Position numbers and translations under genes: made by a program. From Dermatophagoides farinae (Eukaryota; Arthropoda; Arachnida; Sarcoptiformes; Pyroglyphidae), in assembly GCF_024713945.1 (NCBI RefSeq), contig NC_134681.1, positions 4,069,501-4,133,500 of the forward strand: a DNA stretch of 64,000 bases, in the 5' to 3' direction. Positions 50,537 through 63,219 of this stretch are shown here, piece by piece. The notes beneath the pieces are model-generated. The model was not told the DNA's origin. It did no database searches and saw only the letters and a list, made by a program, of their open reading frames with translations. Numbering within the stretch: the stretch's first letter is position 1; each line of letters begins with the position of its first letter.

Positions 50537-53500
50537 CTAATCAACAGTAAATTGAAGTACACCACCAGGTATTGGTTGACCACCATATTTCATTTCGATT
50601 GTATAATTACCCGGTTGTTTAACCTTATAATTAACACTATATGTTCCATCAGGATTACGTACAACTTTACAATCAATATTTTCTTGTGTTTCACGTTCGG
50701 TCTGTGTTTTGGTTTCACGTCTTGTTTCACGAATTAAACGTTTACCACCAGTCGGTGTTGTTTCAATTCTTTCCGTAACAGTTTCTTTACTTTCCGATGA
50801 TGATGTTACACGTGTCACTTTACATGTCAATGATCCCGGTCCAGCTTGTGATGCATCCACTTTAACTGAATATTCTTGATTGGCAACACATTTATCTTTT
50901 AATTCACCATCTTATTTGAAATTATTTTTTTTTCCAATGAATATAATGAGAATGAGAATAAATATTAAAATATATAACCATTGATGGATTACATACCGAT
51001 AATTTTGCATTTACTAGCATCACCAGTCTGTGTGACATCCACTTTGAATGGTGGTGCAACTTCTTGTCCATCGAATTTGACAACAATTTTATGTTCACCA
51101 ATATCTTCCGGTATATAAGTGATCTTATATGTACCATCTTTAAAATCGGTTTTCCAATAACGAATTCCTTTATCTTTTGGATTCTAATTTGATTTACAAA
51201 TACAATAAAATTCATTGAATTATGAATAAATGGATTGTACAGATTGTCATACCATAATGCCAACTTGTAAATCACCGATTCCAGCTTCTTTTGTATCGAC
51301 AATGAATTCAGCTGGCATACTTGCCGGAACTTTTTCCTTTAGACCACTGATTTTTACTTTATTTGGTTCAGATTTCTTTTTCACTTGCATCTTGAACGTA
51401 CTAATAAAACAGATAAATGGAGAAGAAAATATTGAAAAGTAAACATCATCATATACATACCTGCCCTTAATATCTTTACCACCATAAGTGACTTTAACAT
51501 TGCATGGACTACCTTCAGGTGGTGGTTTATAGCTAACATCATATGTACCATCACCATTATCTTTAATGACTGGTTTGTCCGGTATTGGACCTTTATCGCC
51601 ACTAATTTCAACACCAAGTGGAGCTTTAGCCGATTTTTTAGCATTCACTTTGAATGACAATGAATCAGTGGCACGACAATTATTCGGATCGACACCAGGT
51701 CCAGAAGCAGTAACTTTTGAAGCATCAACTTCACCTTGAACCGGTACTTTGAATGGGCTTCCTATTGTGAGCAACAACAACAAAAAAAAGATGTCAAACT
51801 CAGTAATAACGAAAAAAAACGAACAAGAATCGATAATACATTACATACCAGGCACTTGTTGATCACCAAATTTAACTGCAATATTATAGTTACCAGGATC
51901 ATCCGGTATATATTGAACCGTACATGATCCATCACGATTATCGATGCATGTAACTTTTGGTTCAGATGGACCTTCAATAGCAATACCTAATCCACCGTTA
52001 CCGGCACCAGCGGTGACAACAGTAAATTCATTCGGTTGATTAGCATAACCTTTTTCAATACCAGGTCCAAATACTTTGACTTTTTTAGGATCAAAACCGG
52101 CTTGTGCTTTAACTTTTTGTGGCATACCGGGTATTTGGCTATCATCATATTTGCAATCAAAAGTATATTCACCTAAAAAAAATAAGAAATTATAAATACA
52201 GGTAAATAAATAGCAAAAGAAAAACAATTTACCTTCTTCTGGTAGAATATATTTAACTTTATAAGTACCATCATTGTTATTATCAACAGAATTATGAATC
52301 TTTTTGCCAGTTGGTGAACGAATAGTACAGGATATCTTGCCATCACCAGATTTTTCGGTTCCTTGTGCATTAACAGTAAAACTGTTGATACAAGATGAAT
52401 ATTGATCTATGAAATGAAGAGAGAATTTTGGTTGCATTGGTCATCATATTTTATAACTTTTTTGTTTTGTTTTGTTTTTGTTTTGTTGATCGTTCACCAA
52501 TATGCAGTAGTAGTAGTAGTAGTAGTAGTAGTAATACGGTTAGTGAAAACAATTTGACAAGCAATACAATCAATCAATACAACATTTTGCGGCATGCCAA
52601 AACAAAGGCGACGATAATAATAAGGAAAATATATGGATTATATATGAATAATGATGATGATTTGAATCTGTAATCAATAAAGAATACTTCTTCGTTGAAT
52701 TGATGCATTAAATGATTTAGATCGTTGTGGTTGTTGTTGATAATGATACATTTTTCGATGGATAGTGGTGGATTTCATCATATCTTCGATTGATTGAAAT
52801 TTTTGTTCATCATTTATTACTTCCACACGATATGGTGAATTGGATAAATGATACATATTATACAATACTGATATATAATATATACCAATTTTTGTTGGTA
52901 TATATGCTATTGAACAACTACGATCACCATTATCTTTACAATAGATTGCTGCATGTGATGGTCCTTCGACAATCACTTTGACACTTGTAACACAAGCAAC
53001 AGAAGTATTTCCACTGTTACGTACTTGTTTTAGATCGACAACAAATTGACCTAAACGATTTACATGACAAACTGGTCCCAGACCTGGTCCATATGCACGA
53101 ACTTGTTGTGCTTGTTGTTCTTGTTCAAGTAATTGATAATCTTCATCCGTAATTGTAGGTAATATCGGTAATGGTAATACTTCCACTGAATATGGTGAGC
53201 CAGCAATATTGACACTGTTTAATAAAACTCTAATCTGATATGTTCCAGTTAATTTCGGTGTAAAATGTACAATGAATCCACCAGTGGCAACGGTCAATGT
53301 TGGCAATATGCTGATTCGTGGTGCTGTCGTTCGAATATTATTATCATCATTTTGTTCCATTGATACATAATAATCATTTGGTTCATCAATAATAACGGAA
53401 ACATCATCATATTGTCTACATCCAGGTCCAATCAATACACGAAATGTTTGCATCGAATTTATCATCATAACTTGGATCATGGTTATTGATTTGATTGATC

Positions 53501-56500
53501 GATATGATGAACGAAGAAAACATGTGACAACAACATGGAAACATAGATAGAATTCATACAATAAGGTTCATGTAGCATTTGACATTTTTTTTGTTTTGTT
53601 TGGGAATTTGAATGGATGATAATTCAATCGTAATAAAATCCATTCAAATCTCATTCTATCTATCTTCTATAAATATCAATCACTACGTATAATTGTCATG
53701 GCTAATTGTTGCGCATTATTTGTTTATTTTTTTTAATATTAAAAAAAGCTATATAGCTAATCACTAATAGCGTGCATATGGGCAAAAAAAATGTTAGTCA
53801 TATATAATATGTTAATAAATGTGTATATGAATTTTGCCAAACAAAAACTAAATGAATACATACTTGGTTCTAATCCTTCAATTTTCACTTTGGATACATC
53901 AGCAGCTGGTGTTACATTAACATCGACAGGTAATTTAGGAATTTGTTTACCGGCAAATGTAGCATTCACTTTATATTTGCCTGGATTTTGGGCAGTATAT
54001 TCGACAGTATATTGACCATTTTGATGATCGGTCACAGCTGTTGGTACATCATTGCCTTTTTCATCTTTGATCTGTGGAATCAATTCACCTGAACCGGCCG
54101 ATCGTGCATCAACAATAAAATGTGTTGTTTTGCCCGGTTTGACACCTTTTTCCAATCCAGGACCATATAATTTAATCTAGTAATTTAAACAAAAAAAAAT
54201 TGAATTCAACAAAAATCCAACAAATCTACATACCTTGGATGGATCAGCAACACCACCGACTTCTACTCGATATGGACTTTTAGCTACAGCTTGTCCACCA
54301 TAGTTAATCTGAACAGTATGTTTACCCAATTTATCTGGTGTATATTTCACTTTATAGGTACCATCTTTATTATCAGTGATTTTTGTTTCAACCTCTCGAT
54401 AATCAGTATTATCCATGACGGAAATTTCCATTGGAATATTCTTGCCACCAGCTTTTCGTGTATCGACAGTGAATTCAGTTGGCTGAGCAATAACAACTCC
54501 TTTTGGATTCAGTCCTGGACCAGTTGCCGTAACCAATTCGGGTTTGAAATCAGTTTTGGCCACAATAATTGGACAGTATGGCGATTTCGGTATATCCTCA
54601 CCATCGACAGTAATATGAACAGCATATTCACCCGGTGCGGTTGGATGATAGATAACTTCAGCCGATCCATCGCCATTATCATTACATTCAATTTTAGCAT
54701 ATGACGGTCCTTCAACTGAAAATCCTAATGTACCAGTTTCGCCATTAGTATCAACAGTGAATTTGGCTGGATAGCCAACAATACCGCCTTTTAATCCAGG
54801 TCCATAGGCAACAACTTTACTATCAATCAATGGTCCAACTTGAACCTCAAATGGACTTTGAAAGATTTCCTGATCACCAAATGAAACTTCAACCACATAT
54901 TTGCCTTCTTTCAATGGTTTATAATCACAATTATAAGTGAAACCATCTTTAGCTTTAAGAATATTGCATTTGACTTCTTTGCCTTCAGGTCCAATAACTT
55001 TGATTTTTGGTGTACCTGGACCGGCACCTTCAGTTGTAACACGAAAATCGGCAATATCATTAACACGAACACCAATAGGTTGTAGACCACGACCAAATGC
55101 ACGAACTTTTCGTGGATCACATGGTGGTGCAACAGTAGTTTTGAATGGGCTTTGTGGTACTGGTTTGCCAGCAAAATTAACCGCAACTTGATGTGGACCT
55201 TGTAATTGTGGAACATATTCACAACGATATTTCTTTTCATCTTCACCATCTTGACGCAAACGCATTGGAACCGAATTCGTTTTGCCATTCGGATCGGTAA
55301 TGACAACTTCCACTTGACCAATACCGGCACCATTTGTATCGACATCAAAATATGTTTGTTTACCAACTTGTGGTCCTTTTGGTTTTAGGCCAGGACCTTC
55401 ACATTTAACTTTAGATGGATCACCAGGATTACCTTTTACTTCAACTTCAAATGGTGATTTTGGCACTTCAGTTCCAGAATATTTGACAATTACTTTATGT
55501 TTTCCTTCCATTTTTGGCGTATAGGTGCAAGTATAAGTTTTGGCTTCATCATCATTGAATTTAACATCAACTGGCGTTTGTTTTCCTTTTGGATCTTCTA
55601 AAAACACTTGAACCTCACCATCACCAGCACTAAATGTTTCTACTGTGAAATTTGTTTTAGCACCATTAGTGACGCCGGTCTTTTGAATACCAGGACCGTA
55701 GCATCGTACACGTTTTGGATTGTGTCGTGGTTTGGTTGGCGCATTCTCTTTCAATTTAGCATTAGGAAATTGTGACAAAAAAGTCATCATTGATAATTCA
55801 TCTACTTTAGGATTAACCATTTCTTCAGCAGTAACCAATGGTGCTACACCTAAAAATTCTTCAGCTGTACTCATTGCTTTTTGAACATTTTTCAATGATT
55901 CATTTGGTTTCCATTTATCCCAATCCGGACATAAACCAGGTGCACATGCATCAACCAATGCGCCAAGTGCTACACCATTATTCCAATCACTGGTAAAATT
56001 ATTAATTGGAACATCGGGCACTTTATTTTGTATCCATGCCAATAGACGTTGTTTAGGTGATGGGCCACCTTTTTCTTTATACATTGATTCATCTTCACCT
56101 TCCCACATTGGCATCGATATCGAATAATGTAAAATCAATGTCCACATTACACCACAAATTAATTTCACTTTACCATCGACAACATCGATACTATCTATAA
56201 ATAATAAATAACAAGGAATGAAAAAAAAAATTACCATTCGAAAAAAAAACCATTAAAATACGATACCAATGTTGACGATGCGAATTTTTTCATCATTTTT
56301 CAAAAATTGTAATGCAATATTAACATTTTCAATTTTCTGTGCACGAACTTTTGGACGTTTATTATAATTGGGCAATCGTTTACCGGATAACACTTCAACC
56401 AATGCAATTAAACGAATACCATCGCTAAAATCGGTGGTAATATCAGCTATATGTTTATTGACCGTACGAAGATGTTCATTTGCCCATCTTTTCATTGTTA

Positions 56501-59915: not shown

Positions 59916-62022
59916 ATGTTGAGTCGTTCAAATTTTTTTATTATCAAATTTGAAAATGAAAAAAAAATATTCGAATATTCAACCAAATTCTCGCCACGAC
60001 ATCCACAACATGACCATAAAATAATAATCAAGGATTTTTTTAAATCTCATTCTCCATATCGATTTCGATTATATTATTTCCAGGATGATAAAATTTTCAC
60101 AACATTTCCATTGCAATCTGACCATATTGAATATAATGTAACCACAAATTCAGATGAAAAGATCAAGTTATCTATTAATTTGGAAAAATGTTATGATAAT
60201 TTCAAAGAATCATTGATTCGTCCTATTGAATTTGTTCGATTTGTTATTGGACACAAACGTAAACGGATTGGTTCCAATATCATTATTGACCATAAGATAT
60301 CAAATGATCGATTAATTTGCTTATCAACTGAATTTGTATCTAATAATGATTATGATGATATTGATTCACCAGCTTGTGAATTTGATTTTGATAATTTGCT
60401 CTTTATTTTCAAACAAAGATTTATGGTTGTTGATACAAATTTTAAACCTCTCCAAATGAATTATGATGACATTAATCAATTGATCAACAAACATTATGGC
60501 GGATTAACTATTGAAAACTACATCGACAAAATCAATTTGTCTGATTGTGTTTTTTTCAAAGAATTTGGCCTAGAATTCCAACATTTCGCGTTGACCTCCC
60601 ATGCGATGGTTAAACCAGTAATATTTCCATGCTCTTTTTCTGTATTCAATACTCCAGAGAAAAAGATTAAATGGGTTTTTTTTAACTTTGACAAAAACTT
60701 TCAAAATTCAAAAGAATTTGCCAAATTATTTAAAGAAAATGGTAAAAAATTCAACTTTAATATGGATGATTGTTATTTGCAACAACAATGTATTGAAAAC
60801 GTTGATTTTAATGAATTGGAGAATATTTTCCAAAATATCGTCGCACATGGTGTCGATTATGCCCTTTTTGGAATACCTGATGGTATGTGTATTTCTTAAC
60901 AAAAAAAAAATTAATTTCAATTTTTTCAATTTTTATTTATTTTTAAATTTAGATATGAAAATTAACGGTATATCTGCACACGACATTATCAAATATTTTA
61001 GTCTCATCAAGTTCGGTCAGCCATGTCAAATTTTTCGCACAAAAAACTTTAATCATAGAATCGATTTTGATGTCAGTTTATTCATCAAAATGTGCCATCG
61101 ATTAGGTGTATTTCCTAATATTATTAAACAAACATATTGGGGTTCTATTGGATTTAAAGATTTTTGCGATTCAATCATTATGGCTGTTAATTGTGATACA
61201 CAAGAAATTCAAGGCCAACCATATTGGATCATGTCACTAGTTGGATCAAAAAATCATAACTACATGTTGTACAATGAAGCTCATGTAATTGGAAAGAAAA
61301 GAAATTATGCACTTTTACGTGAACAATTGTATCAATTGATCTGCAAATATGAAAAACGACATGAACGAATGCCTAAAACCGTGATTCTTTATTACAATGA
61401 AAGAAATGAAAATGATCTCGTTCAGATTAAAAAAATGTGTAAACTTTCAATGTTTTCTAGTCAAACTGAATCGATAAAATGGGTGATCATCAATGTTGTT
61501 TCTCATAAAAATATGGCTGGAAAATTATTTGAAAAACCAGAAAATGAAGGTAGCTCATTTTTCATTGCTGATGACAAATTTTTGAAACCAAATGAATTCA
61601 TTCTTGGCCACGATTCAAATCATGATAATCCAACATCGGTAACTTTAAAATACAATCAATTGGTTGGTTTATATATTCATCTAATAATTTTTTTTGTTCT
61701 CTTTTTCGACTAGGAAACAATTTTAAAATGTGCTAAATTCGTAATCAATTCGGATCAAACCTTTTATGGAGATTTTGCAATCGCACATGTCACTGATTCG
61801 CTTTGTTATTTATACAGTGAAAGCCTTACCCTTAAGAATCAACCATTGCCATTAACATATGCAATCAATTCCACAAGACAAGCTTTCTCACGATTGAATG
61901 GAAAATTGACCGCAAACAAAGCATATTCAAATGATTACGATGAAGATGAATGGTTATCGATTCTCAATACATCAATGAAATTTAATTTTCTTCACAAAAA
62001 AATTGCTAATCCATTCGTCTAA
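59916..62022 (+). CDS. Divergent Argonaute/PIWI-domain protein, predicted slicer-dead
   Basis: Exons 59916-60882, 60953-61638 and 61714-62022 with continuous frame; 653 residues, short for an Argonaute (usually 800 or more). The C-terminal half follows the MID-PIWI order: EFGLEFQ and a KWVFFNF strand, then IIMAVNCDTQ, LVGSKNHNYM, LREQLYQLICKYEKR, TVILYYNERNEN, IKWVIINVVSHKN, FLKPNEFILGHDSNHDNP, and AHVTDSLCYLY before LPLTYAINSTRQAFSRLNG. At the catalytic places the usual first Asp falls on Asn 402 (Asp comes two residues later), the second on Asn 471, and the final His/Asp on Thr/Ser near 549-552. Between the N-terminal region and the linker before MID there is little room for a PAZ domain. 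The sequence is free of the poly-Q/N/S tracts of its neighbours. The alternative exon 2 donor at 61663 also keeps the frame but is a weaker consensus. It would act in small-RNA silencing without slicing, by inference. Confidence 0.75.
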
Positions 62023-62491: not shown

Positions 62492-63219
62492 TCAAACAAC
62501 TCGCCGTACTTCAAAAAAACGTTTCAAATAGAATACCTGGCCCAATGTAATGGCAACCAATAATAATGCCTCAAAACATGCCCATAATAATACACGTGAA
62601 TTAGTGGAATCATTTATCTGTCTATGAATACGATCACGTACAGTCATATATTCTTGTTCATGTTTTACTGATGAAAGGCCACTAGTTAAATCTTTGACCA
62701 TTTCTTCTAATTTATTATGATCATTTGATCCAGATGATGAATCATGATGAGCACCACCAATACCATCTTTATTTTCATGTTTAGCTTTTTCTTCAACATC
62801 CATTGAAAACATTACCACTTTTGGTGTCATTGATGACATTTTATTACCAAAACAATATTGATAATCACCATCCATATGTGCAGCAAATGTATATTTTCCA
62901 CTTGATACACGTTCTTCATGATGAATTTCTTTATGATCGGGACCTAATATTTAAGATGAAAAAATAAGATTTTAAAAAAATAGCCATTTTATGTATTGTT
63001 ATTTAACATACCAACAATGGAAAGATCGAGATCAAGGAATCCACCTTCAACCACTTCGAATGTTAATCCCATTTTTGTACCGGATGCAACACGTTCAAAG
63101 AAACATTCTTCACCATGTGCATCTATCACAAGAAAATATGAATGAACAGAATTCAGGCAAATGGCTAGAATAATAGCCACAATAAAAATTGATTTTGATT
63201 TGACTGTCAGATTTTTCAT
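62492..63219 (-). CDS. TMED2: TMED2 (p24 beta family) COPI/COPII cargo receptor
   Basis: Exons 63012-63219 and 62492-62943 on the minus strand; 219 residues. A signal peptide ([18 protein letters not shown]) is followed by a GOLD domain with the two Cys expected to form a disulfide (EECFFERV and YQYCFGNK). Then comes a coiled-coil segment ([30 protein letters not shown]), a membrane helix ([20 protein letters not shown]) and the tail [12 protein letters not shown], identical to that of TMED2 in other animals: the FF pair binds COPII and the basic end serves COPI recognition. The protein cycles between ER and Golgi in p24 heteromers. It has a His/Ser/Gly insert of about 18 residues in the linker before the coiled coil, consistent with the low-complexity insertions seen elsewhere in the window. 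Confidence 0.96.

Follow-up and report, generated by a model that had tools for sequence, protein, structure and literature searches.

Structure of the gene

The window analyzed is a stretch of 64,000 nucleotides of the Dermatophagoides farinae genome (contig NC_134681.1, positions 4,069,501 to 4,133,500, forward strand), and positions are counted from its first letter. A gene coding for an Argonaute-like protein, named gene E, is located at the limits proposed in the initial annotation. Its features are the following:

59916-62022, + strand: gene E, three exons, 653 amino acids, frame intact, with the ATG at 59916 and the stop codon ending at 62022
59916-60882, + strand: exon 1, coding for residues 1-322 and the first base of codon 323, and carrying the N-terminal strand, an L1-like part, a linker, L2 and the beginning of MID
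60342-60509, + strand: stretch between the L1-like and L2 parts, where PAZ would sit (residues 143-198, 56 residues; from hhalign, the PAZ HMM and spacing)
60883-60952, + strand: intron 1, 70 nt, GT-AG, phase 1 (alignment columns 1012-1018)
60953-61638, + strand: exon 2, remaining MID and first part of PIWI
60979-61101, + strand: putative MID pocket H332, K336, Q348, K368 and R372 (alignment; coordinates from the 653-amino acid model)
61189-61191, + strand: Asn402, aligned with D597, the first catalytic Asp
61396-61398, + strand: Asn471, aligned with D669, the second catalytic Asp
61639-61713, + strand: intron 2, 75 nt, GT-AG, phase 0 (alignment columns 1306-1311)
61714-62022, + strand: exon 3, C-terminal PIWI part with the stop codon
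61864-61866, + strand: Ile602, aligned with H807, the fourth catalytic position (Asp in Argonautes of the DEDD type)

Exon 1 was established from its open frame, the coverage by the D. pteronyssinus orthologue P0002 and the splice model. The second donor (GTAACT, at 61639) was set after the public D. farinae protein P0001 (HUG17_0555, 371 amino acids), which begins within exon 1, spans only MID and PIWI and corresponds to residues 283-653 of gene E with one difference, at residue 560. An earlier splice model of 661 amino acids, with the donor at 61663, was replaced given P0001; it was the query of the first Pfam search, the PDB sequence search and some of the protein and orthologue searches. 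The protein has no homopolymer run longer than three residues.

Two other genes were recognized by eye in the window, one with filamin-like repeats upstream of gene E (51247-56237, - strand) and a p24/TMED-like gene downstream (62492-63219, - strand).

Relationship to Argonaute proteins

A whole-protein HMM built from nine PAZ-bearing Argonautes (those of eight loci of the D. farinae genome and the scorpion protein P0005) matched gene E with an E-value of 1.6e-14 (Z = 20,000), and none of 200 shuffles reached E <= 10. With HMMs of single segments (Z = 1,000) the values were 1.2e-9 for MID, 4.4e-6 for PIWI and 200 for PAZ, in agreement with the MID-PIWI order initially read from the sequence. 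The N/L1 part was unrecognized (E 5.6, above the 4.9 of the best of 100 shuffles) and L2 was weak (0.15, best shuffle 0.77), the assignment of both parts resting on their resemblance to the related genes A and B described below. The D. pteronyssinus orthologue alone gave no match to the whole-protein HMM at E <= 10 and no MID or PIWI match in place with the segment HMMs.

The Pfam search that had been suggested as a check assigned no family to the spliced protein as a single sequence, but Piwi was found on P0001 below the cut-off (20.3 bits, E = 3.7e-4, cut-off 28.9). A PDB sequence search with the 661-amino acid model returned nothing useful. Gene E is tied to Argonautes by profiles and paralogues. 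Its best paralogue in the genome is gene A (E = 3.9e-8), which has a plain Piwi domain (2.5e-27), and a profile built on these two genes together with D and P0002 retrieves the scorpion Argonaute P0005 at 2.2e-10.

Structure prediction, the other check suggested, was carried out with AF2 on the D. pteronyssinus orthologue and P0001 rather than on the spliced gene E protein. The first model (alignment of five PAZ-less rows only) had a mean pLDDT of 38 and the second (P0005 added, the fused fish model P0006 excluded) of 50, both of low confidence. All the best 50 of 1202 Foldseek matches of the first model (E <= 10) were Argonaute/PIWI proteins, but with TM-scores <=0.30, and the second model gave the same picture (TM-scores <=0.30). 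The first PIWI half of the second model superimposes on a Marinitoga Argonaute with an rmsd of 2.9 A across 108 residues. VIA-align on P0001 covered mostly residues 1-228; the rmsd was about 13-15 A where two domains were matched and 2.9-3.7 A over the first PIWI half. An Argonaute-kind PIWI domain is present according to the HMMs and Foldseek, the models being of low confidence, and so is a MID domain, with residues of a putative 5'-phosphate pocket. Gene E encodes a real, fast-evolving and very divergent Argonaute that is PAZ-less and slicer-dead.

The D. farinae genome contains at least five PAZ-less loci, of which A, D and gene E are intact; this count is a lower bound, since gene E was missing from the 20 candidates that were scored in a Piwi search of the genome. 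The four other loci, A-D, are found at G000:C2:6491700-6501494 and C2:11476-13393 (L026, L027, L028), and the public protein P0003 differs from gene A in 4 of 593 residues. Between B and C, dN/dS in exon 1 is 0.74 over 320 codons. No published account of the five loci was found, including by locus name, in the article passages searched.

Catalytic positions and 5'-phosphate pocket

Three altered catalytic places had been proposed. The asparagines 402 and 471 were confirmed, but the Thr/Ser near 550 was discarded, as residue 550 adjoins the junction of intron 2 and it is Ile602 that takes the fourth catalytic position in the alignment. The place of the catalytic Glu falls in an alignment gap, and ungapped counting from N471 leads to Arg439 (Gln446 in D. 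pteronyssinus). The residues at the other three places are identical in D. pteronyssinus (N409, N478, I608), and the DEDX tetrad is absent from gene E. Some canonical Argonaute (AGO) members are also known without this tetrad.

The five pocket positions, which we take to be equivalent to Y529, K533, Q545, K566 and K570 of hAgo2, read H-K-Q-K-R in D. farinae and D. pteronyssinus, with four of the five kept or conservatively changed; L030, an Argonaute with PAZ, likewise has His at the Y529 place. Four of these residues (K336, Q348, K368, R372) are identical in both species, and the pocket is kept 5/5 in gene A and 4/5 in B. This conservation speaks against the strongest alternative, a protein that no longer binds guides and works as a scaffold or as a decoy sequestering Argonaute partners. 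Other data point towards such a role: net charge is 0 in gene E and -1 in gene A versus +10 to +35 in nine canonical cores (+12 in the D. pteronyssinus orthologue), Gln occupies the R812 place, the QKRHH motif is mostly gone (its Lys retained in D. farinae and lost in D. pteronyssinus), and relative D retains only one of the five pocket positions unchanged. The loss of positive charge argues against tight RNA binding, the gap being smaller for MID-PIWI alone (+2 in gene E versus -2 to +16 in canonical proteins). A non-cutting, guide-binding Argonaute is favored, and the scaffold or decoy role, although a serious candidate, appears less likely.

In two PAZ-bearing DEDD Argonautes, L034 (G000:C8:93001-98500) and L037 (G000:C2:662001-667500), Ser/Glu are found at the K533/K566 pocket places, a combination that might be adapted to guides whose 5' end is different.

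Conservation of the gene

The orthologue P0002 (659 amino acids) spans the whole of gene E with 44% identity, a value obtained with the 661-amino acid model, and 289 of 617 aligned residues are identical. Conservation is highest in MID/PIWI, with 41/56 identical residues in the pocket block and 45/133 in the N/L1 part. The only gene E orthologues recovered by protein searches were those of the two Dermatophagoides species, and one of these searches additionally returned a scorpion Argonaute and a fish Piwi; as the method requires shared five-letter words, absence of orthologues outside the genus cannot be concluded from this result.

The rapid divergence between the two species would also be expected of a dying paralogue, open by chance, and signs of decay are found nearby in the family. 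The intron-1 donor of B is changed relative to C, C is frameshifted relative to B, and a C-terminal fragment of gene E with 39 residues, 62% identical and with an internal TGA, lies at G000:C5:4285132-4285263 (L013, L029). Decay of gene E itself is nevertheless unlikely: its frame is open, both introns are GT-AG, and D. pteronyssinus has an orthologue along the full length, MID/PIWI being the most conserved part.

Absence of the PAZ domain

The distance from the N-terminal strand to the MID tryptophan is 246 residues in gene E, 238 in its orthologue, 243 in A, 244 in B and 181 in D, versus 401-473 residues in canonical Argonautes (six measured of the eight PAZ-bearing loci in the genome). The protein is thus shorter, as had been stated, but by 155-164 residues compared with five of these six loci and by 227 compared with the sixth, rather than by 200. 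There is indeed little room for PAZ, with 56 residues between the L1-like and L2 parts and a negative PAZ HMM.

Of the 12 stretches located by a genome-wide PAZ search, nine fall on the eight canonical loci and three lie at other places, none of them being gene E or its four relatives. In leave-one-out analysis, the PAZ-segment HMM recognized 9/9 PAZ-bearing Argonautes at 5.8e-17 or better, and 7/7 PAZ-less rows gave E-values no better than 36, although one row, B exon 2, could not contain PAZ in any case. One of 100 control shuffles reached 0.0011, so weak scores of this HMM carry little meaning. In profile alignments, the A/B/C set started on the N domain (1.3e-6) and ended on L2/MID (3.1e-13), the PAZ columns being skipped. 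Exon 1 of gene E with its orthologue aligned with this set over 267 columns (hhalign, 8.8e-12), and the alignment of gene E with the canonical N/L1 part was weak (0.012).

Neither a clear PAZ domain nor intact DEDX residues (N402, N471, I602) appeared after correct splicing, and PAZ is missing from the predicted protein. A PAZ diverged past recognition, which the weak conservation and poor modeling of the first 250 residues might hide, is highly improbable in a gap of only about 56 residues and in a span that falls about 160 residues short of that in five of the six measured canonical loci, with the PAZ HMM negative.

Introns and phylogeny

The tetrads of the eight strong PAZ-bearing loci are DEDH-like in two cases (L031 with Asp at the Glu place) and DEDD in six, which equals the published count of Ago1-2 and Ago3-8; the six DEDD loci were equated with DfaAgo3-8 by this count and the DEDD motif, not by accession. 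Intron 1 (phase 1) occupies an equivalent place in gene E, A, D and five of the six DEDD Argonautes, and intron 2 (phase 0) in gene E, A and all six, L037 among them, equivalence meaning agreement within 1-6 alignment columns around gaps.

The phylogeny, with six PAZ-less and nine canonical rows (gene C left out, B as two pieces in one row), separated the PAZ-less rows from the canonical ones with support of 98/96. The tree with mite Argonautes that had been proposed as a check placed the DEDD and PAZ-less rows together on the same side of a branch (100/99). In the best tree, however, which has long branches (about 2.5-2.6), the six DEDD rows group without the PAZ-less rows (84/84). Grouping of gene E with L030, L031 and P0005 was rejected (p-AU 0.005). 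The two intron positions and phases common to E, A and five of the six DEDD Argonautes suggest that the PAZ-less group probably arose beside the DEDD-type lineage and then lost PAZ and slicing. One single loss of PAZ in the group is likely, not proven given the long branches.

Comparison with known Argonautes

D. farinae has no Piwi proteins and has a divergent Argonaute clade, according to PMC5805368, in line with the piRNA loss and divergent Argonautes mentioned for astigmatan mites in the initial annotation. The members of this published class, DfaAgo3-8, were compared there over PAZ, MID and PIWI and carry the DEDD motif. They resemble gene E in genome, equivalent introns and phases, and MID and PIWI, with weak likeness in L2, but they have PAZ and D-E-D-D, whereas gene E has no PAZ and Asn/Asn/Ile. 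Between that class and a new one, the latter is favored, and since its predicted protein has neither PAZ nor DEDD, gene E is distinct from all eight published D. farinae Argonautes. For D. pteronyssinus, PMC7659050 describes Ago1 and Ago2a-2g, with DDH or DDD.

Two precedents are known for the loss of PAZ. Prokaryotic Argonautes of the long-B type, for example AfAgo with AfAgo-N (PMC10954474), share with gene E the arrangement N-L1-L2, MID and dead PIWI with no PAZ; the same article proposes that PIWI was inactivated first and PAZ binding decayed afterwards. Unlike these prokaryotic proteins, gene E is spliced, lies on a mite contig and has mite-Argonaute introns; as these introns link gene E to the Argonautes of mites, the resemblance would be due to convergence. 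The PIWI-like protein of Leishmania is a eukaryotic PIWI protein without PAZ, and PMC3528672 describes it as a mainly mitochondrial protein of 133 kDa with a PIWI domain only and DDH kept. Gene E differs from it by the presence of MID and by a dead PIWI in which DDH is not kept.

Proposed role and significance

Gene E would descend from a common ancestor with mite DEDD-type Argonautes of the DfaAgo3-8 kind, in a lineage that would have lost PAZ and the PIWI active site, as part of a small PAZ-less group in two Dermatophagoides species. The gene structure, the absence of PAZ, the loss of catalytic residues, the common introns and the orthologue are established by the present analysis, while we infer the order of these losses, and likewise guide binding and pathway. 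Most likely, its MID would still grip the 5' phosphate of small RNAs, and the protein would act by RNA pairing or hand-over without cutting; the setting may be the Dicer/RdRP siRNA system that substitutes for piRNAs in these mites. A probability of about 0.5 is given to the reading of gene E as a PAZ-less, slicer-dead relative of DEDD Argonautes that binds 5'-phosphate guides without cutting in the siRNA pathway.

Beyond this gene, it is tentatively proposed that Dermatophagoides, having lost piRNAs, may have evolved non-cutting Argonautes that grip only the 5' end of the guide and leave its 3' end free, converging on PAZ-less inactive prokaryotic Argonautes and used for targeting or hand-over in siRNA-based transposon control. 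If true, this would be an animal Argonaute group devoid of PAZ and the active site and yet kept open in more than one species, and it would allow one to ask which parts of an Argonaute remain necessary after the loss of cutting, in animals whose transposons are silenced by means other than piRNAs.
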